Origin: Physcia stellaris | Lineage: Eukaryota; Ascomycota; Lecanoromycetes; Caliciales; Physciaceae | DNA: 31,487 bases | Direction of reading: 5' to 3' | Assembly (NCBI GenBank): GCA_018902385.1 | Contig: JABSSW010000097.1 | Coordinates: 1-31,487, forward strand | Made by a program: the position numbers and the translations under genes | In this document: positions 1-31,487 of the stretch, piece by piece | Position numbering within the stretch: position 1 is the first letter of the stretch | How the letters are laid out: each line of letters opens with the position of its first letter | Notes under the pieces: model-generated | Databases searched by the model: none | The model's input: only the letters and a program-made list of their open reading frames with translations | What the model was told of the DNA's origin: nothing

Positions 1-44
1 ATCCTCGAGTCCCTTGAGCTTACGCACAATGAGCGTTCGATGAG

Positions 45-551: not shown

Positions 552-719
552 TTCTTACATGCTTACTAAGTCTACCCTGTCTTATGTAATTGCTTGCCAT
601 CTTCTGGTCTATGCATCGCTAATACTCAAGGCCATGAGCGCCTGCAAAGCTCAAAAAACCGCTCTGTCTTTGCTCTAATACAATCTTAAACGCCTTTGGA
701 CAATGTTGATACCGAACGA

Positions 720-6587: not shown

Positions 6588-6721
6588 GGACTGAAGCGTG
6601 GTTGCAACAAGGCGTTTGGTGTATATGGTTGCTTTGAGATACCACTGTTGCGTATAGAGGGCATGGACATACTACAAAGCAATTCTCATTCACATCTTCA
6701 ATCCCTCTCCCGCTCTCCCCA

Positions 6722-10765: not shown

Positions 10766-12175
10766 TTACGCCCACATCACCCACCCCCTTCCCACGACCC
10801 CTTGAACCACACTCACAGGCATCGGCCACACACGCCAGTACCCCAGCTCTCTGAACGGCGGTACAATCAGCGGCAAACTCACGCACAGCCACGCAATCAC
10901 CCAAACCAGCACGCCCATCCTCATCGCCCTCCTCTCGGTCCCTATCCCCGGGAAAAAATACCCCCACGCCTGCGCCCCCAAAACCTCAAGCCCAAACCCC
11001 AGCACCTGCACCCAAAAGAAAGCCCCGATCCACAACCTCATCTCCATCGCGCCCATACCCGTGTTGAGTGGTTTCGGCGGGATCAAACCCATATGCACGA
11101 TCCCGCTGAACCCGAATGCCGATACCGTCACCAGCGCCCAGCGAGCCCAGCCCTGCCATCCGCGCTTTCCTTCCCTTCCTCCGTTCTCCAAGCCAAGAGC
11201 ATCAGCGAGCGACCGTCCGGGCGTACTGACGACTTGCCGACTCATCTGGTGCCACCACTGGCCCCACAACCCCTTTAGCCCGTGGCGCGAGACGGCGGAA
11301 AAGGGCCCGAAGAAGGAGGGCCAGGTGTGTGGTGACCATTCGTCCGGGAGGAGAGTGGGGAAGAGATAGTTGAGGCCGATGGCGGGGAGGACGGGGAGGT
11401 GGAAGAGGCAAGGGATTAGGGCGTAGATCTGGGAGGCGAGGATGGTGGTGCGGAGGAGGCGGGGTAGGATGATTTGTAGTATGACTGGAAGCGGGGATGA
11501 AGGGTTAAAAAATGAGGGGGAAAGCGAGGGAAGGGGAGAAGAGATGGGTAGAGGGGAGTGGAAGTAGGGGTCTAGGTGCGCGTACGATGATGTTAGGTCG
11601 AGGATTAGGTAGCCGGTGATGATCTGGCGGAAGGCGTAGAGGGCGAAAGTGCGTCGTGAAGCGGTGTTAGGCGGTGGAAGGTGGGCGTCGTGGGCTGGGT
11701 CGTTGAGTTTCCAATTTGTGAGGCGGATTGAGAGGACAAGAGTGCCTACCCAGGAGATGCGAGGGCGGAGAGTTTGGGGGTAGGGTTCTTCCAATGTTTC
11801 CGATTGGATCTCATCTTCTGGATTTTTCCTATCTGAGATGAATTTTGGGCTGGGCTGCCTCTTGATAGTATGAATGCGTCTGAAATCCCTCCTTGGATCT
11901 TTAAGCGCCAAGAGCGTCAAACTCCACAACGTTAGATTTACAGAAATGACGTCTATGCCTCCCATTTGCCTCCATGACCGGAGCTGGAGAGCATAGATGA
12001 TTGGAAGGAAGAGGGAGTAAAGGACTCGGTGAGAAAGTATTGACGGCGGAATTAGGAGAGATGTAGGAAGTAAGAAGAGTGCAAGAAAGTAGCTGACATT
12101 GTTAGGTCCTGGTACGATGCTTGTAGTAAGATGGTTGTAAAAGTGGACTATCTGGTCTGTATCAGGTAGAGGCAT
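10766..12175 (-). CDS. Wax-synthase-like MBOAT membrane acyltransferase (intact, 469 aa)
   Basis: The protein belongs by motif to the fungal wax-synthase-domain branch of the MBOAT superfamily, membrane O-acyltransferases that move acyl groups from acyl-CoA to alcohols. Members act in lipid or secondary-metabolite acylation; the substrate cannot be told here. It has several hydrophobic segments (about residues 27-65, 80-92, 142-152, 180-195, 228-272, 345-365, 380-410 and 418-440). RLTNWKLNDP lies at about 151-160 and a WGQWWHQMSRQ motif at about 304-314, with the expected catalytic His in GIVHMGLIPP (His361). The C-terminus YWRVWPMPVSVVQ is typical. The ATG at 12173-12175 gives one uninterrupted exon and TGA or TAA is reached after Ala469. 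There are no frame breaks, unlike the genes to its left. It is the last gene before the AT-rich block, whose edge lies about 200 bases upstream of its start, and it shows no AT shift. Confidence 0.85.
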   Translation of the reverse strand: MPLPDTDQIVHFYNHLTTSIVPGPNNVSYFLALFLLPTSLLIPPSILSHRVLYSLFLPIIYALQLRSWRQMGGIDVISVNLTLWSLTLLALKDPRRDFRRIHTIKRQPSPKFISDRKNPEDEIQSETLEEPYPQTLRPRISWVGTLVLSIRLTNWKLNDPAHDAHLPPPNTASRRTFALYAFRQIITGYLILDLTSSYAHLDPYFHSPLPISSPLPSLSPSFFNPSSPLPVILQIILPRLLRTTILASQIYALIPCLFHLPVLPAIGLNYLFPTLLPDEWSPHTWPSFFGPFSAVSRHGLKGLWGQWWHQMSRQVVSTPGRSLADALGLENGGREGKRGWQGWARWALVTVSAFGFSGIVHMGLIPPKPLNTGMGAMEMRLWIGAFFWVQVLGFGLEVLGAQAWGYFFPGIGTERRAMRMGVLVWVIAWLCVSLPLIVPPFRELGYWRVWPMPVSVVQGVVGRGWVMWA

Positions 12176-12369
12176 TGAATGTAGAGTTCGATGGTGCTGG
12201 ATGTGTTAGATTCGATATTTGCCACGATGTCTCGTAAGTATCATCACTGCGGATGATGACGAATCAAAAGCTTCTTTCGAATTTCTAGCTCCAAGCTAGG
12301 CCAGATTAGGGAAATTTTTCTTTTGTATTAGAAAATGGGATTCCTAGCAATACGCAGAAACTGCAGAAT
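12176..12369. promoter_or_regulatory. Promoter side of the MBOAT gene and composition boundary
   Basis: This short stretch must hold the MBOAT promoter. Sequence is ordinary up to about 12,300 (CTAGCTCCAAGCTAGGCC), mixed to about 12,365, and then uniformly AT-rich with the CpR-only cytosine pattern. I see no certain core promoter element. Confidence 0.4.
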
Positions 12370-13018
12370 AGATCACTAATAAAAAATGTAACGTGAATTT
12401 GATCGAATGATTCTGAAAATGCTTGTTATGATTTATTTACAAATGTGTTACGAACGATTTTTTAGTAAATTTATTGTCAAGCAATTAAGATGCGTCACGT
12501 GACGTTTCGTTTATTGATCAATTATCAATTTTTTCGTTTTTTTTTTTAACAGTTTTTCGCATAACAAGATGCTGTTTTCAACATCATTTTCAAATCGTTT
12601 CTAAAAACATGCAAATAACAAGTTCATATTTTTAATAATTTTGATATCAAATTTTGAATCAAATGAATTGAATTTGAATTGAACAAACAGAAAATCTATT
12701 AATGAATGAATGAAAAAATTCTGAAAACAAAAAAATAAAAATTGAATATTGTCAAATGATTTTCACATGCAAATGTCTGATTTGCAAATTCGAAATGTCG
12801 AAATCGTATTGTGTTTCGAAATTTTCGATTTTGAACGTTTCGAGATTTTGCAAAATGTCGATGACGTAATTTTGATTTGTATAAAATTTTGACTGATTTC
12901 GTTAATGATAATTAATCGAATTCGAATTGTATGATATTCATTGTTCGAACGATTTATTGATTTGTTGTTTCTTATTTATTTTTCGCATAATTTTTTTTCT
13001 GATTCGTCGTAAATTTCG
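12370..13018. other. AT-rich flank of element 1, unidentified
   Basis: No open frame of note, no LTR pair and no recognised domain. It shares the mutated composition of the block, so it is probably part of an older repeat into which element 1 inserted. Confidence 0.4.
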
Positions 13019-13023
13019 AAACA
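13019..13023. repeat. Target site duplication AAACA (left copy) of element 1
   Basis: AAACA directly before the 5' LTR and again at 19580-19584 directly after the 3' LTR. Five bases is the usual Ty3/gypsy duplication. Confidence 0.85.
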
Positions 13024-13338
13024 TGTAAGAAATTCAGAATTCAAAATCTGCAGAAAGTGCGAATCGCATTTCGATTGTCAAGAATTTAAACTTTGCAAAT
13101 TCGAAATATCAAATCGATTATATTATGAAACAAACAATTTCGTCATATTAATAAAATCAACGCAATAACGATTAACGCATCGATATTGACGCATATGCGA
13201 CAATTGATGTGTACGTTGCATTTAACAGAACGTGTATATAATCAATTTTCTGTAAAATAATTAGTTTTGCAATTATTAGTTTACGAACAATATTATTTCT
13301 CGTTACATTATACATTTTTGATGTTCATACGTTTTACA
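13024..13338 (+). repeat. 5' LTR of element 1 (315 bases)
   Basis: It aligns without gaps to 19265-19579, starts TGTAAG and ends TTTTACA. The two copies differ at roughly 21 positions, all of them transitions. About 15 lie in CpT or ApG context. Confidence 0.92.
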
Positions 13339-13685
13339 TTTTAATAATTACAATAATTCACGATTAACATCATTCGTGTATAAGTTAAATATCATTCATG
13401 ATTTCACGTATTTTTTTTTCTTGTTCGATAACGAAAACGTTTTGTCAAAATTTGATCGAACAACAAATCAAATCGAATGAAAAGTTTATAATCGACAACA
13501 AATGAATTTAATCATTAAACGTATTCAAGTCACGATGCAATTTTTTTTGTTTCAACAATTTTTCGCAATGACAAATTTTATTACATCAAAATCATCGAAC
13601 AAACGTTTGCGTTCTATATTGAGAAATTTTATGTCGAATGAATGTTTTACATCAAATTCATGAAAAGTCAATTCAAAATTAATCA

Positions 13686-14460
13686 ATGCGATCGTTTTGC
13701 AATGAATTCGAACGACGTCAAATTCGTGTATGTCGAAATCTTTTTGAAAAGAAAAACACATTCACATATGTTATGAGAAACAGAAATCATTGCGAATTCG
13801 AACAAAAAACGTATCTAAATCGATTACAAAAAGTTTTTGAAATTGAACGTTCAGAAAACATTCATTAAAATGAAAAACATTTATGATAAATATTTGAATT
13901 ATAAACAACATGTTAAACAATCAATCATGAATTATGATGTTCATCGAATTTTTTTAATGACACAATTCATTTCGAATTTGAAATTCAACAACAAAAAAAA
14001 ATTGCAAAATTTCGTTCGAGAATTGTTATCGAAACACAAACGCTTTTTTGCAAAAAAACGTAATATGCATTTTAAAATCGAAATCTTGAATCGTTTCAAG
14101 AAAATCGAAAACGTTGATTATCAAGATAATTTACACAACAAACAAAAAATCATCGAAAATCATATTCACGATGACTCAAATAAACGCAAACGAAATGATG
14201 AAAATTCTATCAACAATGAAAAACAATTCAACAAAAAAAACAAAACAAACAACAATAACAACAATGAAAATGATAAAAAATTCAAATTCAATAATTTTAA
14301 TCAAAAGTCAATCAAGAACAAATTATGACGTTGAACGAAAAACGAATATAAAAATATCGTCGATAAAAACAAATGCAAAAATTGCGATAAATCAAATTGC
14401 AATTTTAACAACGATTGCAAAAACAAAAAGTCGAAAATACATTCAAAAAAAATAATTTTC
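13686..14460 (+). pseudogene. gag: Element 1 gag remnant with zinc-knuckle-like cysteines
   Basis: Open segments at 13686-13868 and 13837-14328 encode a basic, helix-rich, Lys/Asn-rich protein consistent in place with a Gag. In the frame of the second segment, read through TGA codons at two probable Trp positions, a cysteine cluster follows (codons at 14374, 14383, 14398 and 14416, spacing C-x2-C-x4-C-x5-C). This is close to the retroviral CCHC knuckle, but His is replaced and spacing is one longer. The frame then changes into protease across an A8 run near 14447, which could be a programmed shift or an indel. Confidence 0.6.
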
Positions 14461-14960
14461 GATTTACAAACAAAAAATTAAACGATTTGATTATTTTCGA
14501 ACAAATTGACATAATGAAAAATTTTTTAACAAGCAATAATAACAATGACGAATTTTCGTCGACGAATTTCAACAAAATTTTTGTCAAACGTCGTCGAAAA
14601 AAATTTCGCACGATTAAATGCGACAAAATCAAAATTAAAATCAATGACAATGAAATTTTTGCAATCATAAATTCAAAAACAGAAATTAATTTAATAAATA
14701 ATGTTTTCGTTAAAAAGTTCAAATTAATTTTGTTCGACGTTTCTTTTTGCGAAATCATGATTTTCGATAACAATCAATTCAAATTTTATGACGTCTATTT
14801 CGTACGATTAAAAATTTCGAACGAAAACGACGTCAATCGTTTTTTCAACGAAAATTTTCTAAAAGTCGATTTGAATTGAAATATATCGTTAAATTTGTTT
14901 TGATTCAAATTATCGAAAACAGAAATGAATTGAATCGCAAATAAAATTCGATTTTGACAA
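14415..14960 (+). pseudogene. pol: Element 1 aspartic protease remnant
   Basis: Retrotransposon proteases cleave Gag-Pol and need an Asp-Ser/Thr-Gly triad. Here the motif position reads AIINSKTEINLI, with the catalytic Asp codon now AAT at 14670-14672 and the Gly now Lys, all explained by G-to-A changes. The following NNVFVKKFKL and FCEIMIFDNNQF blocks fit a gypsy-type retropepsin fold. It is inactive as written. Confidence 0.75.
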
Positions 14961-14975
14961 TTATCAATTCAAATT

Positions 14976-15960
14976 TTGTTTTTCATCATGAATCGTATCG
15001 AGAAAATCGAATCGAAAAAATTAATCAACGATGTGATTGACAACAAAAATGAAATTTTCGTCATGTTCGTACGAGCATTTCATGACAAAAAAATCGATTT
15101 GAATGAAATACATATCGAACGACGAATTCAAATAAATTCAATTTTAATGAAAATAAAAAAGAAATCAAATATCAAAATCATCATATTCGAAATTTTGAAG
15201 AAATTCGCAAAAATCATTGACGAGAAAAAAATTTACGAATTATTTGCTCATAAATTTAACGATCATTCAATAAATTTGAAATCGAACAAGAAATTTTTTT
15301 ACGATTTTATTTATTTTTTATTTGAAAATGAATTAACGATATTGAGAATTTATTTGAACAAACATTTGAAAAACGATTTCATCAAATCGTTTATTTTCGC
15401 AATCGAAATTTCGATTTTATTCGTTAAAAAAAAACGAAAATTTACGATTGTGCGTAAATTACAAAAATTTGAATTTGTTAATTATCAAAAACAAATACTT
15501 TTTATCGTTGATCGATGAAACTTTAAATCGTTTGAACAAGATTCGCATTTATACAAATTTCGATATAATCGCAACATACAATAAATTTCGTATCAAAAAA
15601 GATGATGAATGAAAAACAACGTTTCGAATTCGTTATGAACATTTTGAATATATCGTTTTATTTTTTGATTTCATTAATACATTTGCAACGTTTCAGAATT
15701 TCGTCAATAAAATTTTGACGAAACGATTCGATTTTTGCGTGATAATATATTTGAACGATATCGTCATATATTTTATGAATCGCGAACAACACATTGAAAA
15801 CGTCAAATGAATTTTACAACGTTTGAAAAAAAACAAACTTTTCATCAACAACGAAAAATGCAAATGATTCACAAACAACATCGATTTTTTGAATTTCGTC
15901 GTCTTTTCGAAAAGTGTGCAAATGCAAAAAAACAAAATAAAAACGATACAAAATTGATTT
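14976..15960 (+). pseudogene. pol: Element 1 reverse transcriptase remnant
   Basis: The first 180-codon open segment holds the start of the RT domain (ILKKFAKIIDEKKIYELFAH, LFVKKK). An A-run indel near 15427 shifts the frame, after which CVNYKNLNLL, LIDETLNRL, TYNKFRIKKDDE and the catalytic loop follow. The YxDD motif reads YLND at 15748-15759: the first catalytic Asp is Asn. Several Trp positions are TGA. Downstream, KCK then TGA, DFLNFVV and IQNFLNLCNFYKRFIRNFNK are the RT thumb and connection region. Confidence 0.85.
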
Positions 15961-15972
15961 GCATCGCGAAAC

Positions 15973-16620
15973 GTGTCGAAAATTCAAAACTTTTTGAATT
16001 TGTGTAATTTTTACAAACGTTTCATTCGAAATTTCAATAAATTGACATTATTTTTAATTTCGATGTTAAAAAAATCAACAAAATTTCACAAAAAAAACGT
16101 CAAACGCAAACGATTTGCAAACAGAAATCGAAATAAAAATCGAAACAAAAAGCGTGTATTAAACAGTTTTTTGATTTTCGAAATTTACGAATTTTTTAAA
16201 CGATTGCGAAAAACGTTTTGAATGATTTTCATTTTGCGACATTTCGATTCGACTAAATTTATTCGTGTGAAAATCGACGTTTTCGACAAAATTATCGATG
16301 ATATTTTCAATCAATCAAACGACGAAAATCATTGACATTTTGTAATTTATTTTTCGCGAAAAATGATTTCGATCGAATGTAATTACGAAATTCACGATAA
16401 AAAATTTCTGACAATTGTTTTCGTTTTCAAACAATGACGTTATTATTTTGAGAAAATCAAAAAACAAATTTTAATTTTGACGAATCATCGAAATTTCAAT
16501 CGTTTCATGTTAATTACAAAGTTTACATTTCGACAAATGCGATAAATTCAAAAACTGTTTCGTTATAATTTCGTCATCGATTATCGATTTGACAGCAAAA
16601 ATTTTGCGAACGATTTGTTT
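15973..16620 (+). pseudogene. pol: Element 1 RT connection and RNase H remnant
   Basis: After the LCNFYKRFIRNFNK block and a basic insertion (about 16085-16155), RNase H landmarks are readable: LRHFDSTKFIRVKIDVFD near 16235, HFVIYFSRKMISIECNYEIH near 16335-16390, and ILTNHRNF near 16475. RNase H removes the RNA strand after first-strand synthesis. The frame is kept apart from TGA codons at Trp positions. Confidence 0.75.
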
Positions 16621-16869
16621 CGACGATTTGATCATATGAAAATCAATGAAAATAAAATCGAAAATAATCGTCAAATATTGACACAATTACGAAAATTTTT
16701 GCAAACGAATTCAAACGAATTTCGTGCGTGCGTCGATGCGATTCAAACAACAATACAAAAATCAATTCAAAAAAAAATTGCGAATTCGAATTTTATCGAA
16801 CGAACAACGTGCGAAATCGACGATTTCGTTATTATCGACAATACATCAAACGTGATCGTTGACGAATGA

Positions 16870-18050
16870 AAAATTTTCATGTTAAATAATGCAATAATTT
16901 TCGAATCGATTTTCGCGATGATTGCGTCAAAACATATTCAAAAACATGATACAACGTATAAATGCGACAATGAAACGATTAATATCATTGTCGATCGAAT
17001 TCGATTATTGTTGAAAAAAAAATCATGCGCGATTCAAATGAAACAAAAATTAATTATTTTTGATACATCATTTCGACATTGACATGACGAAAATAAAATA
17101 TTATAACACGAAAATTGTTTGTACGTTTCGTCGAATTTGAAAAAAAACGTCATTAATGCAAATCATGACAATTTTTTGATCGAACATTTCGATGTGAAAC
17201 GCACTTTGAAATTTGTACGTCGAAAATATTATTGATCGAATCAAAAACGAAATGATCAAAAAAACATCGAACATGATTTTAATATACGTGCACAAATCAA
17301 AAAATATTGCGAAACATCGCAAAATTTGCAAAAGAAAAAAAATTTCTCGTCACAAATCATATGAAAAATTGTTTTTTTTTTTCAATATCGAAATTCAAAT
17401 GAATTGACATTACAATGAATTTCGTGACAAATTTATTCGAAAATAAAACATGAAACGAAATTATATACGATTCAATATTCGTTGTAATGAATAAATTGAC
17501 GAAAATAACACATTACATTTTCGTCACGAAAACGATGATCGCAAAAGATTTCGTCGAGATTTTGATACGTGAAATTATAAAATTTCATGATTTTTCGTCG
17601 TCAATAACAACAAATCGAAATTTTATTTTCACGTTCAAATATCATGATTCGTTGTGTTACGCATTCAAAATCAAATTCAAATTGTTCACAATATATCATT
17701 CGCAAATCGATGATCAAACAAAACGACAAAATAACATCATGAAACAATATTTTCGAACGTTCATCAATTTCGAACAAAACAATTGAATGAAATTGTTATT
17801 CATGACGAAATTCGTTTACAACAACAATAAACATGCATTTATTCAAATGTCATCATTCGAAATCATGCAAAAATACACTTCGAAAATGTCATTCGAAAAT
17901 TTCGCGAATTTCAAAATTAAATCAAAATATGTCAACGAACATGTCAAATACTTGACAAAATTGTTAAATGTATTTAAAATCAATTTAGTTCACACGCAAA
18001 AACAACAAATCAAATACAAAAATGTAAAATTAAAACGTCGATAAAATTCA
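16870..18050 (+). pseudogene. pol: Element 1 integrase remnant
   Basis: The N-terminal HHCC zinc-binding region lies at about 17170-17330 (EHFDVKRTL, KYCETS, KICKRKKISRHK), with a one-base frame change near 17297 and another near 17412. The catalytic core has the family blocks MNKLTKITHYIFVTKTM, SSITTNRNFIFTFKYHDSL, YHSQIDDQTKRQN and MTKFVYNNNKHA. In the DDE triad the first Asp is Asn (17490), the second is Asn (17613) and the Glu of the QTERQ block is Lys (17721). It cannot be catalytic as written. Confidence 0.87.
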
Positions 18051-18203
18051 AAATGAAAAATTACGTCAATTTTAACGTCAAGAATATTCGCACAAAACGT
18101 GTTAAAAAATTCGAATGAAAATTCTTCGAATCATTTAAAATATTCGAAATTATAAAAAATCAAATTTATCGTATAAATATATCAAAACGTTGACGAATTC
18201 ATA

Positions 18204-18500
18204 ATGTTTTTCATGTATCGTTTTTTGAAGAAATCAAAATTAAACGAAAAAAAAATTTCGTTAGAATTCACATATCAGTTCAAAAATATTGACATTGAAA
18301 AAAACGAAATCACAAAAAAAATATACGACGTTAAGACAATTGAAAATAATAAAATTTTCAAAAAAAATCAAATTTCGAAAAAATCATACAGCGAATTAGA
18401 TTTTTACTATTTCATTCGTTGAAAAAACTATGAAAAACGCATTTGAAAATCAATATCGATAATCAAACATTTGAGAAATTTGATACGAAAATTTCACACA
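18204..18500 (+). pseudogene. pol: Element 1 chromodomain remnant at the Pol C-terminus
   Basis: After the linker (FLKKSKLNEKKISLEFTYQF), the segment at about 18390-18490 reads SELDFYYFIR, TGA (Trp position), KNYEKR, TGA (Trp position), KSISIIKHLRNLI. This is the YLVKWKGY-type chromodomain of chromoviruses, which in active elements directs integration to modified histones. Confidence 0.75.
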
Positions 18501-18626
18501 AAAAATTCAAAAAAAAAAAAACGATGTTAACAAATTGTCGAATCGACGTCGTATTCGACGTCAAATAAATGCAATTTTCTTGATGAAATCATTGATTAAA
18601 AAACAAATTCATCAATGATTTTGTGC

Positions 18627-18694
18627 TGTTTATTGTCAAAAATTTACGTCGCATAAAAAACTGAATTGTGTCAAAAACATTTTCAAAAACTGTT
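18627..18694 (+). repeat. Segment shared with element 2 (inverted relative to the plus strand)
   Basis: About 65 bases, including ATTTACGTCGCAT and GTGTCAAAAACATTTTC, recur on the minus strand at 20470-20538 in element 2. In both elements it lies downstream of the integrase/chromodomain region, so it is in the same sense relative to each element. Confidence 0.7.
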
Positions 18695-19074
18695 GAAATT
18701 TGATTTAATGAACGTCGAATATCGTGATAAAATAAAAGTAAAAAATCGAAAAATTTTTCGAAGTTTGATATATTCAATGCGATCGCGTTTATTCGACGTT
18801 TTTCGCGATTAATTTTTTTTTCGAACAATTCGTCGATTTCAATATTCGAAACAAGAAAATAAAAAATAATGATTGATTCAAATTCAAATTTCATTGTCAT
18901 TCAGTTAATTGTTAATCATCAAATCGAAAATCGTGAATTGTACGAAATCAAATTTTCGATATTGAAAGCAACGAACAGTCAAATCATCAAATCATGCTTT
19001 TTTTGAATCATTCAAAAAAATGTATTTTCAGATTTTTAACGCAAATTGACTAAAAATCGAATAAAATGATAAAA

Positions 19075-19165
19075 TATTCGATGCGAAAATCACGATCACA
19101 ATGATTTTTCAAATTATAAAATTTTCGAATGCGAAAATCGCGATTACAGCGACTTTTCAAGTTTC
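19075..19165 (+). repeat. Tandem duplication of about 45 bases near the 3' end of element 1
   Basis: Two adjacent copies start near 19077 and 19121 and share TTCGA(A)TGCGAAAATC(A/G)CGAT(C/T)ACA and then the block (A/G)ACTTTTCAA or GATTTTTCAA. They differ mainly by transitions. The location is noncoding, just upstream of the 3' LTR. Confidence 0.7.
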
Positions 19166-19264
19166 ATGAATACAACATATGAACACAAATTTACAATTTC
19201 AACAATAATTCAAATCAGATAATATTGTTATTTCAAAAAACTTCGATATTTAAAAGAAAACGCG

Positions 19265-19579
19265 TGTAAAAAATTCAAAATTCAAAATTTGCAAAGAATG
19301 CGAATCGCATTTCGATTGTCAAAAATTCAAATTTTGCAAATTCGAAACATCAAATCGATTATATTATGAGACAAGCAATTTCGTTATATTAATAAAATCA
19401 ACGCAACAACGATTAACGCATCGATATTGACACATATGCGACAATTGATGTGTACGTTGCATTCAACAAAACGTGTATATAATCAATTTTCTGTAAAATA
19501 ATTAATTTTGCAATTATTAGTTTACGAGCAATATTATTTCTCGTTACATTATACATTTCTGATGTTCATACGTCTTACA
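19265..19579 (+). repeat. 3' LTR of element 1 (315 bases)
   Basis: It matches 13024-13338 end to end, starts TGTAAA and ends CTTACA. The target duplication AAACA follows at 19580-19584. Confidence 0.92.
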
Positions 19580-19584
19580 AAACA

Positions 19585-20063
19585 TCGAAAAATTTTGTTC
19601 GTTAAATGATCGTAAATATTTTTCGCGTACAAAGAAAAATCGTAAATGATCGTCATGAAATTGATTTGATGTTTTATTGTCGTTCATTTTCAAAAGTTTG
19701 TAATTGAAATTGTGTTTGTTCGTTTTATTTGCAATGACAAATGACGTTTTTTTTTCGTCAACGAGAAAATCTTTTAACGAATATTGAATTGATATTCAGT
19801 AAAAAAACGTATTGTTCAGAAATAAACATTTTGACGTTGACTTTTTTATCGTAACGAATTTTCATACGTTGTTTTGATTTTCGTGTGCGTTAAATTACGT
19901 TTTGACGTATTTGTTTTCGTTTAATCATGTGATTTTATACGTACGATAACATTTTTTCGACAATAAAAAAAATTATTTTATTAAATAACATTGTCGTTTT
20001 GATTGATCGTACAATTTGTTGAATCAGAAATTCGATATCATGTAATATTTGATTCGAAATGTA
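19585..20063. other. AT-rich spacer between the two elements, no gene
   Basis: No open frame of note and no recognised motif. By the target-site evidence it was adjacent to both 13023 and 26774 before the two insertions. Confidence 0.4.
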
Positions 20064-20068
20064 ATTTA

Positions 20069-20292
20069 TATCATGAATCGTGTTTGAATAGACGTATTAT
20101 TGATTAGTTAAACGAAAACAATAAGTTTGCAAAAACAAATAAATACAAAATGTTGAAATTGCAAACAATGTGCGACGTCAAATTTCAAATCACGTTAATT
20201 TCAACGTAAAATTAAAACATAATTCGTTGCTCGATCACATATCATATCAATTATTTATTTATCAAATTTATCTGTCAGACATGTTCGTAACA
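20069..20292 (-). repeat. 3' LTR of element 2 (224 bases)
   Basis: It matches 26545-26768 end to end without gaps, with about eight differences, all transitions and seven in CpT/ApG context. In the element's sense it starts TGTTACGAAC. The other end (CATGATA) does not show the usual CA, so that edge is uncertain by a few bases. Confidence 0.85.
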
Positions 20293-20538
20293 CTATTTTT
20301 TTTTTTCGCGAGCGTCGTCTCGACGATTCGTTGTTGCTTCGAAATTGAAAAATTTTGTTGAGAATTTTGCTGACTGATTTGCGTGTTTGCAGAATTCAAA
20401 AATTTCACGATCATCATTTTTCATTTTCAGATGTTTCGTTATTGTTTCAAAACTCGATAAAATTTGACAACAATCTTTGAAAATGTTTTTGACACGATTC
20501 AATTTTTCATGCGACGTAAATTTTGACTGTAAATAACA
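20293..20538 (-). pseudogene. Element 2 3' open region of unknown function
   Basis: A minus-strand open segment (20293-20502 and a little upstream) reads KLNRVKNIFKDCCQILSSFE, then TITKHLKMKNDDREIFEFC, running almost to the 3' LTR. Its upstream part is the segment shared with element 1 (KFTSH then KLN.VKNIFK.C in both). I recognise no domain. It may be an extra reading frame or merely conserved untranslated sequence. Confidence 0.35.
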
Positions 20539-20944
20539 TCGAAACGATAACGAAAATTAAAAATTGCGCGAACGTTGCGAAAATGAAATCGAAATGAATG
20601 TATTGAATTCGAAATTTTCAAATTTTAATCGAATGTAATTTCGATTAATGTCAACATGACGATTTTTTTTCGAAAACGACGACGATTCGTTGAAAAATTT
20701 GATTCGTTGACAACGTTTTGAAATATTGAAATCAACGTTTTGAACGATTTTGAATTTGCAATCGTGAAATGAATGCGATAAAAATCGTTCATCACGTCGC
20801 GAACATTATCAAACTTTTCGTTGTCGACATAATATCATGTTCGATCATGCGATCAATTCGATCAATTGACACGATATTGAAAACGATTGTAATAATATCG
20901 AAATTTCAAAATATCGTTCATTTTTCATTCGAAATTTTCGTTGA

Positions 20945-22010
20945 CTATGACAAAATCAAAAAATTCGTTGATTTGATTTTCGAAAAAATCACGAAAATTT
21001 TGCGAAAAAAATCAACAATGAAACACATCGTAAATATGCATGATTTCAAATAATTCGAATCGATAAAATTGTTCATACGTTGTAATATTTTGTAAAGATT
21101 TAATTTTTTGTCATCGAGTTTGTCAAACGATTTGATCGTTTTGATATTTCGTCGATTCGAAAAAAACGAAATTTTTTCGACGTATTTTACGATTTTTCGA
21201 TGTTTGTTGATTTGAATTGTCATACGTTTTTGAATCATTTTTGTATGATTTCGTACGTAGTTGAAAATATTTTGCATCGTGTCGATAATATTTTTTGTTT
21301 TGACGATCAAAAATCGCTTTCTCGTTGTAATATACGAGATAAAATTTGATGAAAAACTCATACGAAAATGAAAATCTTTATTGATAAAAAATGAAAATAA
21401 TTTTGTTGTTGCAAATATCGCGTTGTTGTTTGCAAATTCGATCATGAACAATCAAACGTTTCAATCGTTTTGCATGTAATTGCAATATTGTCGCAATTGT
21501 TTTTCGATATTCTGATTGATTTTTTCGATTTGTTCATCGATTTCTGAATGAAAAACGATGAAGAATTTACATTTGATGTCGAGAATTCGACAAAATGTTT
21601 GTTAAACGAACGATATGAATTGAAAATCTCGATCAAACGTTATCGAAAAAAATAATTCATGTGTACGAAATACGTAATTGATGAATATTTTGATCGTGAT
21701 TTCAGCATTGATATTCTCGTCGTCGACGATACAAAACACGTAATGACGTTTTTTGCTAAATTTGTCAATTATCGTGCATATGACATTATGATCGTGAACG
21801 TCGAACAATTCGATAATGAAATTCATTGATATGTCGATTCAACGTTGCAAAAATATAATCAAAAAAATAAATAAATCGTTTTTGCGATTTTTGAAAATTT
21901 TCGTGCGTTGACATTCATAACAATTACGTACGTATCGACGAATCGCTTTGCGCATGTTGAGTCAATAATAATCGCGACGTATAAAATTTTTCATGCGATT
22001 AAAATCTGAA
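20945..22010 (-). pseudogene. pol: Element 2 integrase remnant
   Basis: Read leftwards, the zinc-binding pair NCYECQRTK lies near 21920. The core follows, with ISMNFIIELFDVHDHN (the usual Asp of MDFI is Asn), CTIIDKFSKKRHYVFCIVDD, then SITFDRDFQFIS, where the second Asp is kept. The FANNNAIFATTKLFSFFINK block and NRRNIKTIKSFDKLDDKKL, LYKILQRM then follow, which is the C-terminal GPF/Y-like module of fungal gypsy integrases. Confidence 0.87.
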
Positions 22011-22531
22011 TGTCTTGAAACAAAAAATTCATGAATTTTTTTGAAAAAATCAACGAGTAAAAAAACATCGACGAACATTCAAAGTCGATTTTTTCGATAC
22101 AAAACGTCGTTTTTTTCAATGCAATTTCGTAAATCAATTTCATTCATTGAAATGAAATTTTGCTCGATGATTTCACGATAAATCGTGCAATCATCGTCAA
22201 TTCTGTTGACAGCAAAAACTCGTTCATAGATAAATTCGTCAATTTTCATCGCGTGAATTTCGAATCGTTTCGAAATAAACAGTATTTGTTTTCGATATTG
22301 ATGTCGTTCGTCAATATCGTTTTTTGATCGTGAATCAAACATACGAATCAAAACATTTGTTTTAACGTTTTGAGTTTCGAATTGAAATTGAATGACAATA
22401 TTGAATTTCGAGAAAATTTCTGCTCAACGAATCTGACGAAAAATTAATTTTTTTGACGTTATGAAAATTTTCAAATTTTTGTGATCGATGAAAATTTTGA
22501 TCGATTTTTCAATGTTTTCAAATTCAAAACG

Positions 22532-22753
22532 TCAATGTTTTAAACAACGAATAATGATCAACAATTTTTTGTCGTAAATTTCGTAATTGCATTCGATTGA
22601 AATCATGTTGCGATTATAAAAAACAACAAAATGCAAAATTTTTTCGTCGTCGTATTGAAATAACATTTTCGCATTGACGTAATCAAAAAAATCAATTTTC
22701 AAAATGATTTGTTTGATTCGATCGTAATGTCGTAATATGAAAATTTTCGTCAT
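22532..22753 (-). pseudogene. pol: Element 2 RNase H remnant
   Basis: An open segment reads LRHYDRIKQIILKIDFFDYV, then MLFQYDDEKILHFVVFYNRN and MISIECNYEIYDKKLLIIIR. These are the standard blocks of gypsy RNase H, with the first catalytic Asp (KIDFFDY) preserved. The frame stops at a TGA where Trp is normal. Confidence 0.85.
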
Positions 22754-22759
22754 CGTTTT

Positions 22760-23535
22760 TTTGAGAAAATTGAAAATTTTTTCGATTTCAACAATTCATT
22801 CGAAATTCACGAACTTTTTGATCATTCGAGTGAAAATTCGAATTTTTTTCGAAAAGTCACGAATGAATCGTCTGTAAAAGTTGACGAAATTCACGAAAAT
22901 TTGCATTTTTTTCAGATTTGTAAAACGTTTTCAATTGACAATGATTTTTATTTTTTTCGAATTCATGCGAAAATCATTCATCGATAATATGACGTTCAAA
23001 AATGCTATTTTTTTTTGAAAAATTCGCATTTTTCAATATTCATTTGTAATTCGATTTTTTTGAATTTTTTCAGTATTTTACGAACGTGAACGATGTGCTT
23101 TTTTTTGAATTTGTTGTAAATAAAAATATCATTTAAATAAATTTGACAAAAATCGTTCAGAAAATTGAACAGCAAATCGTTCATGTAATGTTGTCAATTC
23201 GCGAATTCGTTGATCAATTCGAAAAATAATATTCGATATTTGTACGATTTCATGAAAATAACGAATGTGATGAGTTTTTCACTTTTTTCACTCATTCGAA
23301 ACTTATTGAAAATCGATATGATATTCAGCTTGATCAAATATTTGCAATTTTGCATTTTAATCAGAATTTTTTCGATCAGAAAAATGAAATATCGATTGCG
23401 TTTCGTGATGTGATTAAGTCGTCGATAATTCACACACAAACGTAATTGATTATTTGATTTGATTGCAAATAAAACGAACGAAACGTATGTTGTTTGATTG
23501 AATACGATGAAATTTTTTTGAAAATTATTTTTCAA
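22760..23535 (-). pseudogene. pol: Element 2 reverse transcriptase remnant
   Basis: The open segment 23194-23535 reads YVSFVLFAIKSNNQLRLCVN, YRRLNHITKRNRYFIFLIEK, KYLIKLNIISIFNKFRM and YKYRILFFELINEFA. The first catalytic Asp in KLD is Asn (KLNII). The YxDD loop at 23128-23139 reads YLND, the same change as in element 1. The thumb region continues towards 22800 with TGA codons. Confidence 0.88.
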
Positions 23536-24428
23536 GTATTTTTGAATTTTTGAAATTTGAGTTCGAACAAAAATATATTTCGATTTCGAAACAATGTATT
23601 GTTATCGTTTAAAATTCGATTTTGTGATCGTAAATTCGATACGACGACAATTGATTGTTTTTGAAAATCGAATATTTTTGACAAATGTTTGAAATATTTC
23701 GATATTTTTTTCATTATACGTTCAAAAATCGACTTGATTTGTTCGTGTTTCAAAATTTTTTTGATCATGACGACAATTTTCAACGATTCAAAATTTGTTC
23801 GCAATGTTTTGAATGCGAAATCGATTTGATTGATCGTAATGAAAAAACATTGCATTTTTTGTTTTCGATTTTTGAAATCGACGAATAAACAAAAAAAAAT
23901 CGCATCAATCATCGCGATATTCATCGAATCGTTTGAATTCAATTTCGAAAATGAAAAAATTTCGAATTGTTGTTTTTTGATTTTTCAACGTTTGTTGCGT
24001 TGTTTTTTCAAATTTTTTTTTTTGACGAATGTCGTTTTCGTAATCGTTGTAATATCAATTTTTGAATGATTTGATTGACGATGAACGACTCGTCATTTTG
24101 ATCGATTTTCGAATGAATAAAGCAATCGAAACATTTTGAATCGAATACGTTTGATTCGTTTTGTACATAAAACGTTGAAAAATTAAATTGCGAACGAAAT
24201 AAAATCGTATATCGAAATTTTATTGCAACAATATGTTTCGCGTTATTTGTTTTCGATAAAAAATATCGCGACGTCAATTAAATACGTTTTATCGACGATT
24301 TGAATCAAAATTTTCAAACGTCGAATTTGAATTGTTTTGATGAATATATTGTCATGATGATTACATTTGAACGATTTGAAAATCAATTTATCGTAAATCA
24401 TATTCAAAATAATTTCATGTTTGTTCAT

Positions 24429-24827
24429 TCACGATTTTTTTAAAATTATCGAATGATTGTTCAGATCGATAATGAACAAAAAAATTGTCAATTCGAAATG
24501 CAAATCAATTGTCAATTTGAAATAAATGACATGAATTATTGAAAAAATTTGACGATCGTCGAATTCGATAATGAATTTCGATTTTAATAAAAATACGAAA
24601 TTCATGTTCAACATGTTGCATACAAATTGCGCAATTTTTTTATCAATGAAAGCATAATCAATTGCATCAATGTTTATTAAAATTTCTAATTTATGTTTAT
24701 TATCGTTGAATGACAACGTACAATTGATAATTAAAAATCGTTTGACAAAAAAATCAAACAATTCGTCATAATGAATAAAGAAAATTTTTAAACATTCATC
24801 AATCGCGTTTTTGATGTGAATTATCAA
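24429..24827 (-). pseudogene. pol: Element 2 aspartic protease remnant
   Basis: One 132-codon open segment contains the retropepsin region: HKLEILINIDAIDYAFIDKK, with the catalytic Asp changed to Asn (codon 24672-24674) and the Thr and Gly changed to Ile and Asp. QFVCNMLNMNFV, FDDRQIF and LNNHSIILKK follow, as in gypsy families with LVDTGAT-type motifs. Every change at the active site is a transition in CpT or CpC context on one strand. Confidence 0.83.
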
Positions 24828-24919
24828 TTTTTCGAATCAAATTCGCTCGATTCGTTGATCATGTTCATGTAAAATATTTGCATTTTGTGTCAATGACGTT
24901 TTTGATGTTTGTGAACGTT

Positions 24920-26280
24920 CGAACATTTTTTTCATACGTGATCGATTTTATCACATGTGAAACATTTGTTCGTGACGATTAATTTGTCGATCATCGAATC
25001 ACGAATTTTGATTTCAACGTTGAAATGAAAATGAACTGTAAATTTCACGAAAAAAGTCGAGATGACAAATTTCGTAAAAAACATCGAAATCGAAACGACA
25101 AAAATTGATTTGAATTAAAACAATTCAAAACGTTGTTGACGTGTCGCGATTTTTTTTTTTCGAAAATTCGATTGTCGATTGTATATTTGTTGCAAAATGA
25201 TTCGAATTTCATCGAACGTGATGAATTCACGTGAATATACATTCATCGTTTTTTTCAGATTTCAGAAAATTTTGTTCATCAATTTTTCGATTTTGATGAT
25301 TTCGTTATAATCAATTGAATTGCTAAGACGAAAAAAAATGAAATAAAAAAATTGAAAATTTTGAATATTCATGATCAATGTTCGAAATTGATTACGCATA
25401 TTGCGTTTGAAATCAAAATTTTCGTAAATAATGTTCAAAAATTTCAACATTATATGTCAAATTTTGAAATGATTCATATCAATATCACGAATCGATTGTA
25501 TGTGATCATCAATATCATTTTCAATTCAATCAATCACAATAATGATTGCGATCATGTTCGTGTCGTAATGATCAACGTTGATCGTCATTTTATCGTGTAT
25601 TTTTGTTTTTCAAACACGTCAAATGAAGTTTTATTTCATCGATGAATTTAAAAAAAATTTGAATGTGCTTTGAAACGTCGTTTGTTTTTGAGAAAAATTA
25701 ATTACGTTGATTTTATCGTCGTTTTTCATCGTCGACGTCAAAATTTCGTGCACGATCGCGAGTTTTGATCAGCAAAACGTCGTGATTTTTTTCAAAAAAT
25801 GTAATTTTTTTGTTTGATCAGAAATAAATCATGTTGTTTTTCGTATTCGTTTTTCAGAATATTCAATTTTCGACGAATTTCATTTAATTCGACATTCGTA
25901 TTGATTAGTTCGTCACGATCGACGTTGACAATATTGTACAAATTTTGATATTGAATCAGAACGTTCAAATAATTGTCGCGATCGATGCGTAATCGATCAA
26001 ATTTCTTTAAAAAATCGACGATTTTATGATTGATTCATCATTTCAACTGATCGATGATGACGATATTCAGAAAATGAATGATTTCGTTATTTTTCATTTT
26101 TATGAATTCGATCGTTGATACAAATCGACGACGTTTGAATTGAATAACGAAATTTTCGTCAAAAAAATTGTCGTTAATTTCATGCAACATACGATTCACA
26201 TTGACGTGTAACGTTTTGAGACGTTGTTTCATCGAAATAGAAAATTCGAAAAGAATTGTTTCGTGATGATTTCGAATCAT
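24920..26280 (-). pseudogene. gag: Element 2 gag remnant
   Basis: Open segments at 26038-26280, 25262-25450 and 25045-25242 lie between the 5' LTR and protease and end in a zinc knuckle. At 24923-24964 the minus strand reads C-FT-C-DKID-H-V(stop)KK-C, an exact C-x2-C-x4-H-x4-C spacing, with TGA at a Trp position. The N-terminal segment has HHETILFEFSISMKQRLKTL and is otherwise unremarkable. The frame between segments is interrupted. Confidence 0.7.
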
Positions 26281-26544
26281 AACTGAAAATGAAAAATTGA
26301 AAATGATAAAAGAAAAAAAAATTAATCGTGTTAGTTTTCGTTTTCTATCGTCGATTGCGTGAAAATTCGATTTGTTATTTCACGATTTTCGTCAAATGTC
26401 TCGTCAGGAAAATTTTTGAATCGTTTGCTTGATCAACAAGAATTTTTCGTCGTTTGTTTCGTCAAAAAACTTAATCGATTTGAGATTTTATTTTTGAACG
26501 TTCGCGTATCACGACGAGCGATAGAAATTGAAAATTTATTGTAA

Positions 26545-26768
26545 TATCATGAATCGTGTTTGAATAAACGTATTATTGATTAATTAAACGAAAACAATAA
26601 ATTTGCAAAAACAAATAAATACAAAATGTTGAAATTGCAAACAATGTGCGACGTCAAATTTCAAATCACGTTAATTTCAACGTAAAATTAAAACATAATT
26701 CGTTGTTCGATCACATATTATATCAATTATTTATCTATCAAATCTATTTGTCAGACATGTTCGTAACA
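26545..26768 (-). repeat. 5' LTR of element 2 (224 bases)
   Basis: It is the same length as 20069-20292 and colinear with it. Its right edge (TTCGTAACA on the plus strand, TGTTACGAA in the element's sense) is followed by ACTTA, the probable target duplication. Confidence 0.87.
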
Positions 26769-26773
26769 ACTTA

Positions 26774-29700
26774 AATGTTTCACATAACGTTCGTTGCATG
26801 TCGATGCATTTTTTTCAACGTATCGATAAAATTTTTATTTGAAAATGTTATTTTGTTCATTATCGTTCGAAATGTTTTATTATTTCGTTTTATAATTTTC
26901 AATGATTTATGCGATTGATTGAAAACGATGATACAAATAATTTCTAATTCGTTAAATATTTTTGCATTTCGTTCGATCTGAATGCAATATTTGCGTTTTA
27001 ATACATTGCGACGAACAAAAAATAATCATTGAATTTATGATATTCAAATGATTGTTTCACGTTTGAAATTTTCGTATTCAATTGTTGAGTACGAAAATAA
27101 ATCGTTCGAAAAATAATTTATTATGTTACAAATATTCTTGAATTCATATTTCGAAAACGTGAATCAATTCATGAAATCGATATCGAAAAAATCGTAAAAT
27201 TGATAAATCTGAATAAATGACAAAAATACGTGTCGATCGACGATGATTCATTTGCGCAAAATAAACATTTTTGTATGTATGATTTGATATTCGAAATCAT
27301 TGAAAAATCAAAAAATTTGATTTTTGATTCGATTGAATATGATATTTGACGAAAAATGATCGATTTCGTCATGTGATTTTTTGCAACAAAAATGCGATTT
27401 TCTTTTTCGTGATCAAATATTTCGTTTATCGTTGTTTTGATGCAATAATCGTTCGAAAATTTCGTTTTATCGATATTTATTTATTTTACGTTTGAATAAA
27501 TCATTACGATTTTGTTCGCATTTGTTGAAATTTTTGCTTTGCGTAATAGTCGTAAATATTTGAATATTATTTTTTTGAATGTAATTTGATCGAACGTCGA
27601 TTTTTTCGCTCAATTGAAATGTTCGTATCGTTGTTTGAAAACGAAAACAATTAAATGACATGATTCGATGAAACAAATTTCAAAATTTTGTTTTTTCACA
27701 AAAAACGTTCGAAATTTCGATTTTGATTATGATTTTCATCGTATTTTTCGATTTTTCGCTTTTCGTTTTCGATCGATAATTGTTTCAAAATATCACGATG
27801 ATTTTTTGTCAATCTTTCAAAATCATTTGAATATCGTTTTGTGATTTTTGACTTTCTTGTACAAATTTTTGATTAATTGATTCGATTCGCAATTTTTATC
27901 GTTGAAAATTACGCGTGAAAAATCGTCGATTTTGATTTTTTTATTCTCGATATATTTGATCTGAATATTGTGATTTCGAAATTTGTTTGTTGACGAACAT
28001 ATATATTTTCGTGTTTTTGAACGTTGATGAAATTAAATCAAAATTTATGATTCGTGTATATCGTATTGCGTTTCAAAAAGTCAAAAATGTGTTCGTGTTT
28101 TTTAATGAAATGAACAATGATATACAATTTTCGTTTGTATGTATCGTAATTGCGTTGCGTGACGTTGAATCAATTTGATTATAAAAAATAAATCGTTTTT
28201 TTTTTGCAATTGACGAATGTAAATATTTTAAAAACGAAACGATGTCGATGCGTCTGTGTATGTTTCGCAAAATAACGAAAAATCATAATCGAACATTTCA
28301 TTACGTTAAAACATAATTGTTTCAATATTTGAAACGACAAATTTTTGATTTTGATCATCGAAATTCGATTTTATTGTCGCACAAACGTTGAAATGATTTT
28401 TGAAATTAAATCGAAATTGATATTTAACGTCTCGTAAATTGTATTGTTTCGAGAAAATTTCGTAATCGATAAATTTTGAAAAATTGATCAATTGCGTATT
28501 TTATCGATGAATTTTTGTTTAACGTTCAATATTTAAATCGATTAAATGTATTTGATCGAATGTTTTGAATTTTTGATTTCGATTTTAGTTTGAAAAATGA
28601 AATTTTCATTAATCGCGATCGTTAATAATTTTAAAAAAAATGATATTTTAAAAAATAATATTGTTTTTCGAAAATTTTATGATCGTCAAAATATCGTCGA
28701 TGTAAAAAAATATATTTGACGACGTCGTATGCATTATCGCATGTAATAATCATTAACGATTTTGAATACGATTTCGATATCGAATTAAAACGATATTGAT
28801 TAATTCGATAAATGTAAACGAAAACGTTTTGATATTTTGTGACATGCGAATTGATTGTTTGATCGATTTCAAATACGTGAAAAATCAAATAATGACAATT
28901 TTCGAAAAAATTGTTATATTTTAATAATCGATGTTTCGACATATTTGTCGCAAAAAGAATATTCGATGATTTGAACGATTTAACAAATCAAATTGTACGT
29001 TATGTTAATTTTATCATATTTTCGACGAATTTCTTATACACGAAATGATAATTGAACGTGAATTTCGATTTTGTTTAATTCGATTTTGATATCAAACAGA
29101 TGCGTTTTTATTTGAAAACAATTTTGCGATGATTGTACGTTTTTACAATATCGATTTCGATATTTTTCTGAATAATAATTTGATAAAAATTTTTTATCTG
29201 AAATAAATCGATGTTGTTTTGTATTGTAAAATTTCAAATTAAAACGAAAAATGATTCGATGTACGATAAAATCGATAATCGATATTTTGACAGTTTTTTC
29301 GTTTCGACATCACGATAAATTCATATAAATTTGTAAAATTTTAAAACGAAATGCAAAATTTGAAATTGCAAATTTGATTTTTTTATGTGATTTTTTCGTT
29401 TTTGAAATTTCAAAAACAATTCGTTGAATTGATTGATATTGATTTTTTTCGTCGAATTATTCGTCGAATTGTAAAAAAAGTTTTGAAATTTGCTGATTTC
29501 ATTGAAATAAAATTGACGTTGTTGATTCGTCATAAAAAATTATGAAATTCGACTTTATTTTTTTGTTCGTTTCAATGAAATATCGTATTTTATCGTTTGA
29601 AGCATTTGTAATCATATTTGATATTTGTATTTTCAATTTGTTTGAAAATCGAACGATAAAAAAATAAATTTTCTTGATTGTTTCAATGCAATAAACAAAC

Positions 29701-31487
29701 GTATTCAATATCACAACGCATTTGCGAATTATTTTCGAAATTTTGAACAATGTTAAAAACGACATTAAATATTCGAATGTTGTTTTTTTATTGATCATTT
29801 AAATCGAAACGAAAAATTACATGATTCGATATTTGCGTTGATATAATCGATGCAAAAATCAACGAATTGATATAACGTTTTTTTTTGAAAATGTTGTAAT
29901 GTTTTTTTAATTTTTACACGTGAATTTTCTTTAAAATCGTTAGCAAAATTTATTGAAAATTTTCATGTCATTTGATTTGATAATTTTATTTTTCGTATTT
30001 GATTTCGATATATCGTATTCGTTTGAATTTAATTTTTCATCGATATTCATATTCATAACACGTTGCGTCGTTGATTTAAATTTTTTGATTATGTTTTTGA
30101 AAAATTTTTTTTTGATCGTTTTGTAATGTTATTTTTTTGCATAATTCGAAGAATTTTTCATGTGTTGTTCAATTAACTTTGAAACATTGACAAATTTTGT
30201 TGTTTTATTCGTAGTTTTGTCATCAATGATGATTTTTTTTTTCTGTATATTTATCAAATTGTTGAAATCGAATCTAATCATAAAAATTCGAATAACAATT
30301 GAATTTTATTATGATTCGAATTGACGAAAATTCAGATTTTTCGAATGATTTTCTTCACATGAACGTGAAAAATGACGAAATAATGAACTTTATGATAATT
30401 ATCATTGATCACGTCGTTCGAATATTTCGAAAATCGATTTTGATAACAAAATTCATTTTTAAATCTAAATTATTTATCAATTTTTGATTGATTATAATCA
30501 AATTCGATTTTTGATCGATTTTGATCATATCGAACGATATTTTAATGATTAGAAAATTTTTCTTGTCAAATTTATTGCAATTGATGAACACATAAAAAAC
30601 GTTAAATGATTCGTTAATTGTTTGCAAATACTTTTTAGTAATTTATTTGTTGTTTTTGCTTTTATCGATTTCGACGAAATTCGTATTGACGATTTAAACA
30701 TTTATGATTTGAATAATTTTTTTCGTGCGTGATTTTCGATAAACGATAATAAAACGTTTTGATTCGTCACGAAAATAAAATGAAAATTGATACAAATGCA
30801 TGTCGATAAAATAATCGTATTGTTAATGAAAATGTTTTTACATTGATTTTTGATTTTTTTCATTTTCGAAATCGATTTCATCATTTTTTTTTTTTTTTCT
30901 TTTTTTTTTTTTTGAATTTATCGACGAAAAAGTCGACAATACGTTTTTGTTGAATGTTTTAAATCAATATTTGAATTGTTGTTTTTGACGTTTGCGTGTT
31001 TTCGTAACGTTAAATAACACGATCGAATCATCGAATTTTCGTGAAATAAAATGACGAGATTAATTTTGTTAATTTCGCGAAATGTGAAAATTTTTATTTC
31101 AAAGTCGTCGTAATCGAACATTTGAATAAACGTTTTGAATCAAAACATTTCAAAAACATATTTCAGTAAATTGCAATTAGAATCGTGTTTCGTTTACGTT
31201 GTTTGAATTGAAACATACGATCAATATATTTTAATGAAACAATAAATGTTAATGCAAATATTACAATTTCAAAATGAAAATCACGTCGTAAATTTCGTTG
31301 TAATACGTGATTTGATTATTGCAAATTGCGAAAATGATTGGTCGTATTTTCGTTGTTGATTGATGATTACGTTCGATATTTTGTTGTTTTTGAAACGATC
31401 GAATTGTATATTATTTGAAATGAAATTAAAATCGTATAGATTTTTTTAAATGTATTACGAAATGTCGAAAAATTATAATTCGTTGTT
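26774..31487. other. AT-rich mutated DNA, unidentified
   Basis: About 4.7 kb with the same composition and CpR-only cytosines. Several minus-strand open segments of 60-103 codons (for example 28631-28942, 29034-29237, 29499-29798, 30409-30627 and 30918-31121) lie in mixed frames. I could find no RT, integrase, protease or transposase motif in them. No LTR pair is seen, so an element here would run past the window end. The interval also holds two adjacent long T runs (about 30885-30913). The likeliest reading is an older repeat, class unknown. Confidence 0.45.

Follow-up and report, generated by a model that had tools for sequence, protein, structure and literature searches.

In the lichen-forming ascomycete Physcia stellaris, contig JABSSW010000097.1 of assembly GCA_018902385.1 carries a hypermutated, AT-rich block in which cytosines followed by a pyrimidine have almost disappeared and those followed by a purine have been kept. 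The window analysed here comprises positions 1 to 31,487 of this contig, and the block occupies 12345..31487, with a GC content of ca. 0.22-0.30, no CC and only two GG dinucleotides. Probably, this block is largely multi-copy DNA that was hit by repeat-induced point mutation (RIP), or by a RIP-like process, that reads the base on the 3' side of its target. The specificity is best read as CpC > CpT >> CpA > CpG, the inverse of the order known from Neurospora crassa. Both strands were struck, hardly any change is other than C:G to T:A, and the GC-balanced DNA that was sampled was spared.

Dinucleotides were counted in positions 12370-31487 (19,118 bases, hereafter the block), with positions 1-12369 serving as control. 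In the block, C is followed by A 1087 times, by G 1158 times, by T 143 times and never by C, so that A or G follows 94% of all C. The initial annotation, made from the sequence alone, had noticed this in a few lines (63 of 67 C before A or G, none before C), together with a mirror pattern for G and a scarcity of TpA; all three extend to the entire block, where the pattern is stronger than had been described. Base composition alone predicts about 298 CC and 349 GG, against none and 2 observed (GG at 26407 and 31340), AG occurs 178 times (observed/expected 0.19), and the observed/expected ratio of TpA is 0.43, as compared with 0.66 in the control, and that of CpG 3.59. Expressed as C/(C+T) on both strands, cytosine survives at 2/2715 positions before C and 321/7191 before T (0.045), against 2331/4563 before A (0.511) and 2316/4647 before G (0.498). 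The corresponding control values are 0.494, 0.497, 0.630 and 0.453, which places CpG in the block at the control level and CpA slightly below it. The last CC or GG upstream of the block lies at 12343, which sets its start at about 12345-12377, and the signature extends to the contig end.

This composition is missed by the indices commonly computed for RIP. The block has a TpA/ApT ratio of 0.424 and a (CpA+TpG)/(ApC+GpT) ratio of 1.374. Thresholds for these two indices have been set at 1.1 and 0.75, respectively. Another pair, 0.89 and 1.03, is printed in PMC3897900. None of 37 overlapping 1-kb windows was called as RIP by either set, the highest TpA/ApT being 0.63 and the lowest substrate index 1.04. 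Since the usual indices read the block as RIP-free, surveys based on them may have missed species of this kind. A CpY index (Y, pyrimidine), calculated as (CC+CT+GG+AG)/(TC+TT+GA+AA), gives 0.034 in the block and 0.981 in the control part.

The direction of change can be read from copy pairs, as un-mutated copies of the mutated long terminal repeat (LTR) elements are present within the same assembly. Between the un-mutated L057 (contig C52) and its mutated counterpart L056 (C55), 7372 aligned columns contain 1932 C:G>T:A changes, 23 other substitutions and 37 gap columns. Sorted by the next base, C became T at 941/946 CC, 923/970 CT, 57/935 CA and 4/920 CG sites. The two strands hardly differ, with C>T at 909/1848 sites and G>A at 1023/1935. 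The change was a burst, with nearly no accompanying substitutions of other kinds. The reverse transcriptase part of the same two elements (L013 to L030) exhibits 918 transitions and 2 other substitutions, distributed as CC 434/436, CT 452/463, CA 26/443 and CG 0/409. A second element family pairs the un-mutated L058 (C12) with a mutated retrotransposon of the window (element 2, see below): CC 947/976, CT 722/833, CA 51/869 and CG 28/900. This pair carries more ordinary divergence, which points to an older event. Ten further pairs, each of more than 1,500 columns and all sharing L013 as reference and hence not independent, display the identical order, with conversion of 0.953-0.997 at CpC, 0.756-0.978 at CpT, 0.035-0.147 at CpA and 0.017-0.072 at CpG. 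Across thirteen pairs, the CpC rate is 1.4-2.4 times the CpT rate by -ln(1-p). The initial annotation had suspected a preference for C followed by a pyrimidine and had proposed aligning repeat copies to see whether CpA-to-TpA changes dominate; the paired copies reveal no CpA-led change, and they add to the suspected preference that CpC is converted more completely than CpT.

Un-mutated LTR elements were found inserted in mutated DNA at C52:252957-260314, C12:57396-64107 and C5:1163593-1170313. Their LTRs are 99.5% alike in L057 (C52), identical in L058 (C12) and 89% alike in the C5 element (L059), and the C52 and C12 elements look like recent insertions. The borders with the surrounding mutated DNA are sharp. 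Mutation of the flanks is less complete around L058 (CpT 0.14-0.26) than around L057 and L059. Normal DNA returns about 160 bases beyond the mutated L056 element.

In the copy pairs, the base 5' of the target had little influence. Where CpA was hit, which is rare, the base one position further 3' tends to be a pyrimidine: CpApY was changed at 46/415 sites and CpApR (R, purine) at 11/508 in L057/L056 (p 2e-8), and at 33/378 and 16/483 sites, respectively, in L058 and the window element (p 9e-4). In L057/L056, spared CpY sites are commoner towards the ends: the first 500 columns have 11/128 and the final two bins 8/125 and 11/88, as against 0-8 in each of the bins between them. This end effect is weak in L058 and the window element, with 19/153 in the first bin, 17/138 and 3/62 in the last two, and 1-14 per bin between.

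The coding effect was counted in three frames of L057 (748, 435 and 435 codons) and two of L058 (1151 and 519), in which gapped codons were skipped and which may overlap. Every Trp codon became a stop in the mutated copy (30/30 and 26/26, respectively), turning into TGA and seldom into TAA, and Gln codons mostly survived, with 1/82 and 1/62 becoming stops. Gly codons (102 and 70) and Pro codons (97 and 101) dropped to zero. When a mutated frame of 218 residues was used as query, 64 public predicted proteins were matched, and 53 of these contain neither Gly nor Pro. This suggests that other material may share the mutation type, with the reservations that the query, itself free of Gly and Pro, introduces a bias and that some matches are possibly from P. 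stellaris itself. Five public predicted proteins that resemble such mutated DNA (P0239, P0250, P0289, P0290 and P0298) have 5-6 Trp each but lack Gly and Pro, as would be expected of a gene caller that took TGA for Trp. Mutated transposons of the CpY type may therefore mislead the prediction of genetic codes.

The searched P. stellaris assembly comprises 44.0 Mb in 147 contigs; the genome paper describes 46.57 Mb in 184 scaffolds with 43.3% GC, obtained by hybrid Nanopore/Illumina sequencing, and in the passages covered makes no mention of RIP (PMC7513301). Ten 6-kb stretches from nine contigs were sampled as 60 one-kb pieces (60 kb of the 44 Mb), which separated into 46 pieces with a GC content above 0.42, 12 below 0.32 and 2 between. 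C/(C+T) before A, C, G and T was 0.599, 0.463, 0.445 and 0.510 in the 46 GC-balanced pieces, and 0.504, 0.010, 0.454 and 0.059 in the 12 low-GC pieces. The initial annotation had reckoned that its interpretation would fall if CpC and CpT were depleted genome-wide, single-copy DNA included; the 46 GC-balanced kb sampled have lost neither. Reverse transcriptase loci exhibit both states. Among the best 30 of 150 scored loci, the four that rank highest (L013-L016) are un-mutated, with 0.44-0.49 before C. In the other 26 (L017-L042), the value before C is at most 0.026 in 22, the exceptions being L018 (0.146), L029 (0.056), L027 (0.405) and L041 (0.502), and all 26 range from 0.495 to 0.615 before A and from 0.431 to 0.573 before G. 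The 150 matches scored, of 527 candidates, include 10 that are stop-free, 112 interrupted by TGA only and 28 with some TAA or TAG; their stops amount to 250 TGA, 33 TAA and 3 TAG.

A PF00145 profile search of the genome returned four matches corresponding to three genes, two of which are RID-type. RID-A (C5:501700-498816) encodes 934 aa, and its searched part (residues 200-934) is 100% identical to the hypothetical protein G7Y79_00005g016670 of Physcia stellaris (932 aa). RID-B (C6:790906-792561, L054) encodes 513 aa and is a second RID paralogue, also present in Heterodermia, that may be either an old paralogue or the product of a transfer. In a tree of 50 sequences, 49 of them hand-selected from 238 listed proteins, RID-A clusters with the RID of other Lecanoromycetes, and the branch of RID-B, long and with weak support, lies close to the DmtA proteins known from Eurotiomycetes. 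Both proteins keep the PCQ and GNAVPP motifs. Just past PCQ, conserved residues are replaced in RID-B (T by S at 301, D by F at 307 and N by K at 310); the RID-B of Heterodermia deviates there too, and RID-A does so at few such columns. Solved structures were searched with RID-A and with 403 residues of RID-B, which gave 45 and 41 entries, respectively, none named RID. The third gene, on C3, has an open frame that is 1118 codons long. A scan of 1009 of its residues recognised DNA_methylase and DUF7893 domains, and from its size and motifs we take it to be DIM-2-like. The initial annotation had pointed to a RID/DIM-2-type system and to a search for methyltransferases and deaminases. Genes compatible with such a system are present, two RID-type and one DIM-2-like; for deaminases, APOBEC_N (PF08210) was the one family searched, in six frames with introns ignored, and had no match in the genome at E 0.1.

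Two traits of RIP are found together: both strands carry C:G to T:A transitions (1932/1955 substitutions from L057 to L056), and RID-type genes are present, two in number. A confinement to repeats may be a further trait: multi-copy stretches are mutated, the 46 GC-balanced kb normal and the borders sharp, but the un-mutated pairs of 96% likeness (C97/C73 and L058/L059) call for explanations of their own. The process we propose would depend on an enzyme reading the 3' base, by which C would be converted almost always before C, nearly always before T, in about 6% of cases before A and almost never before G. It would act before meiosis and be triggered by sequence duplication, and a RID-class methyltransferase with a changed 3'-base preference, RID-A or RID-B, perhaps together with the DIM-2-like protein encoded on C3, may carry it out. 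Possible, if rather doubtful, is the narrower proposal that RID-B, with its replaced T, D and N after PCQ in Physcia and Heterodermia, is a dedicated 3'-pyrimidine mutator that converts nearly all CpC and CpT in one or a few rounds. If so, the specificities of fungal genome defence would include one class or more to which surveys based on indices are blind.

Some observations weigh against a RIP-like origin. The classical CpA-type trait is absent, with CpA changed at only 57/935 and 51/869 sites and TpA not raised. Among cytochrome P450 genes (108 matches, inspected for stops alone), no host-gene paralogue was clearly mutated. Moreover, the assembly contains both L058 and L059, un-mutated and with a likeness of 96% across 6.7 kb, and positions 1-9000 of the window have a 96% second copy on C73, of which a GC-rich part of 1.5 kb, compared base by base, is un-mutated. 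Strict RIP within one nucleus predicts otherwise, although new arrivals or alternative alleles could explain such pairs. L058 and L059 are read here as recent arrivals or as copies joined by a cross. The sequenced culture was grown from ascospores (PMC7513301), and the C73 copy is probably an alternative allele retained by the assembler, from a culture that arose from more than one ascospore.

Other explanations account less well for the same data. If a DIM-2-like or other enzyme methylated CpY in repeats and spontaneous deamination turned these sites into T over a long time, the DIM-2-like gene would be at hand, and the CpG signatures of some fungi have been attributed to methylation and deamination (PMC4352252). 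Ordinary substitutions would, however, accompany such decay, and they number 23 beside 1932 C:G>T:A changes in 7372 columns from L057 to L056, and 2 beside 918 from L013 to L030; about 99.5% of CpC was changed and CpG kept. We therefore consider slow decay quite unlikely. That a cytidine deaminase acted on single-stranded complementary DNA (cDNA) during retrotransposition would agree with the clearest cases being retrotransposons and with a burst in L056 that spans one whole element copy. Yet cDNA editing is strand-biased, and the enzymes involved typically read the 5' base; here, both strands of one element were hit equally (909/1848 and 1023/1935), the specificity is set by the 3' base, and APOBEC_N, the one deaminase family searched, had no match, making this explanation very improbable.

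An error of sequencing or assembly, or elements of intrinsically biased composition, would have to be sought in the hybrid Nanopore/Illumina assembly (PMC7513301). Un-mutated copies of the elements occur in that one assembly, the second copy on C73 is about 96% concordant where compared, and some 1900 changes per element beside normal DNA are not read error. In addition, the 53 of 64 related public predicted proteins without Gly and Pro, whose sources are unnamed and perhaps in part P. stellaris, are not what such an error would give. We attach next to no weight to an artefact, nor to a depletion of CpC and CpT throughout the genome independent of repeats. The latter is refuted within the 60-kb sample, in which the 46 GC-balanced kb have C/(C+T) values of 0.463 before C and 0.510 before T, and positions 1-12369 of the window are also normal.

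Most of the region 13024-26768 is occupied by two mutated LTR retrotransposons. Element 1 (13024..19564, plus strand) is bounded by LTRs at 13024-13323 and 19265-19564 that are 93% alike, and its reverse transcriptase (15427-15897, plus strand) is interrupted by three TGA; its LTR has at least 40 matching places genome-wide (40 scored of 208 candidates). Element 2 (20068..26768, minus strand; LTRs at 20068-20292 and 26544-26768, 96% alike) belongs to the family of the un-mutated L058 (C12) and L059 (C5), with its pol on the minus strand aligned over 21486-24948. Upstream of both lies a mutated repeat without assigned class (12380..12980), which has six near-full-length places in the genome, including those of the window and the allele-like C73 copy, besides partial ones. 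From 26769 to 31487, dinucleotide counts give the identical signature. The GC-balanced, un-mutated part used as control (1..12344) contains host genes: a piece of an E1 ubiquitin-activating enzyme (1072-2313, minus strand), pieces of a GH125 mannosidase (within 5176-6385, plus strand) and an MBOAT gene (10766-12175, minus strand).

Window positions 1-20249 repeat the end of C73 (C73:160220-180405) as a second copy of 96% likeness, GC-rich and mutated parts alike, as judged from stretches 1-9000, 10866-14819 and 17752-20249. The likeness runs on into the compared stretches of the mutated block, where the mutations are shared. Between L005 (C73:177941-180405) and window 17752-20249, C/T differences sorted by next base amount to G 14, A 8, T 8 and C 1 (n=31), a hint that spared CpG sites may now be mutating faster. 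In the L002 comparison, which includes un-mutated DNA, they amount to T 16, G 14, C 8 and A 7 (n=45), and a CpG excess is not clear.

With a near-absolute and inverted specificity, mutated and un-mutated copies side by side and only three DNA methylase genes found, P. stellaris makes what determines the dinucleotide preference of RIP testable by swapping RID domains with Neurospora.

CpA, CpT and CpG signatures occur across fungi, and RID has been linked to CpA and CpT (PMC4352252). The covered parts of the individual reports describe CpA and CpT in Anisogramma (PMC10998396), CpA in Mycosphaerella graminicola (PMC4522978), in internal transcribed spacer pseudogenes of Ophiocordyceps (PMC7493409) and in ribosomal DNA (rDNA) pseudogenes (PMC5555474), CpA plus CpC-to-TpT double changes in Monilinia (PMC8959702), a dominant CpT to TpT change in alignments (PMC7882544), and classical indices in Ramichloridium, where CpC is a strain label (PMC5602860). 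Stagonospora nodorum combines CpA-led changes with CpC depletion, and its short rDNA repeats exhibit CpT without CpA changes, for which the authors doubted a link with RIP; the same paper mentions CpT changes in N. crassa Tad1 (PMC2621366). No repeat-directed case that is CpC-led or near-absolute for CpY was found in the parts of the open literature covered, a scope that left the dinucleotide survey of Clutterbuck 2011 outside.

A 3' pyrimidine is also favoured by the RIP of Botrytis, Sclerotinia and Magnaporthe, which is biased towards CpT and occurs in genomes with one or two copies of RID/Masc1 (Amselem et al. 2015, PMC4352252). There, however, CpT joins CpA, and the main text does not mention CpC, whereas in P. 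stellaris CpC is hit more than CpT and CpA is nearly spared, so that the CpT type is not matched. The RIP-like hypermutation of Basidiomycota shares the C-to-T bias, and CpC is the commonest context of heterozygous single-nucleotide polymorphisms in Table 2 for Rhizoctonia solani AG8, with one per 214 bp, followed by CpG (370), CpA (422) and CpT (491) (PMC4014442). Yet its authors call the bias CpG, the very context left intact in P. stellaris, and the changes, a few per kb, are a polymorphism between nuclei that affects genes and repeats alike and not a near-complete conversion of repeats. Among lichen fungi, Cladonia rangiformis resembles P. stellaris in its sharp AT-rich blocks derived from transposons and in its reported RID and DIM-2 homologues (PMC12542154). 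These blocks peak near 16% GC, for which more contexts would presumably have to be hit than in P. stellaris; CpA, CpC and the word dinucleotide do not occur in the text of that paper. Endocarpon pusillum also has mutated repeats, but these pass the classical indices, with a TA/AT of 1.47 (PMC3897900). With the RIP of N. crassa and other Pezizomycotina, P. stellaris shares C:G to T:A mutation on both strands of multi-copy DNA, the sparing of sampled GC-balanced DNA, and genes of the RID and DIM-2 types. The preference in N. crassa is CpA>CpT>CpG>CpC, and Trichoderma reesei also places CpC last (PMC5496416); in P. stellaris, by contrast, CpC comes first, CpG is left untouched, TpA does not rise and the RIP indices fail.

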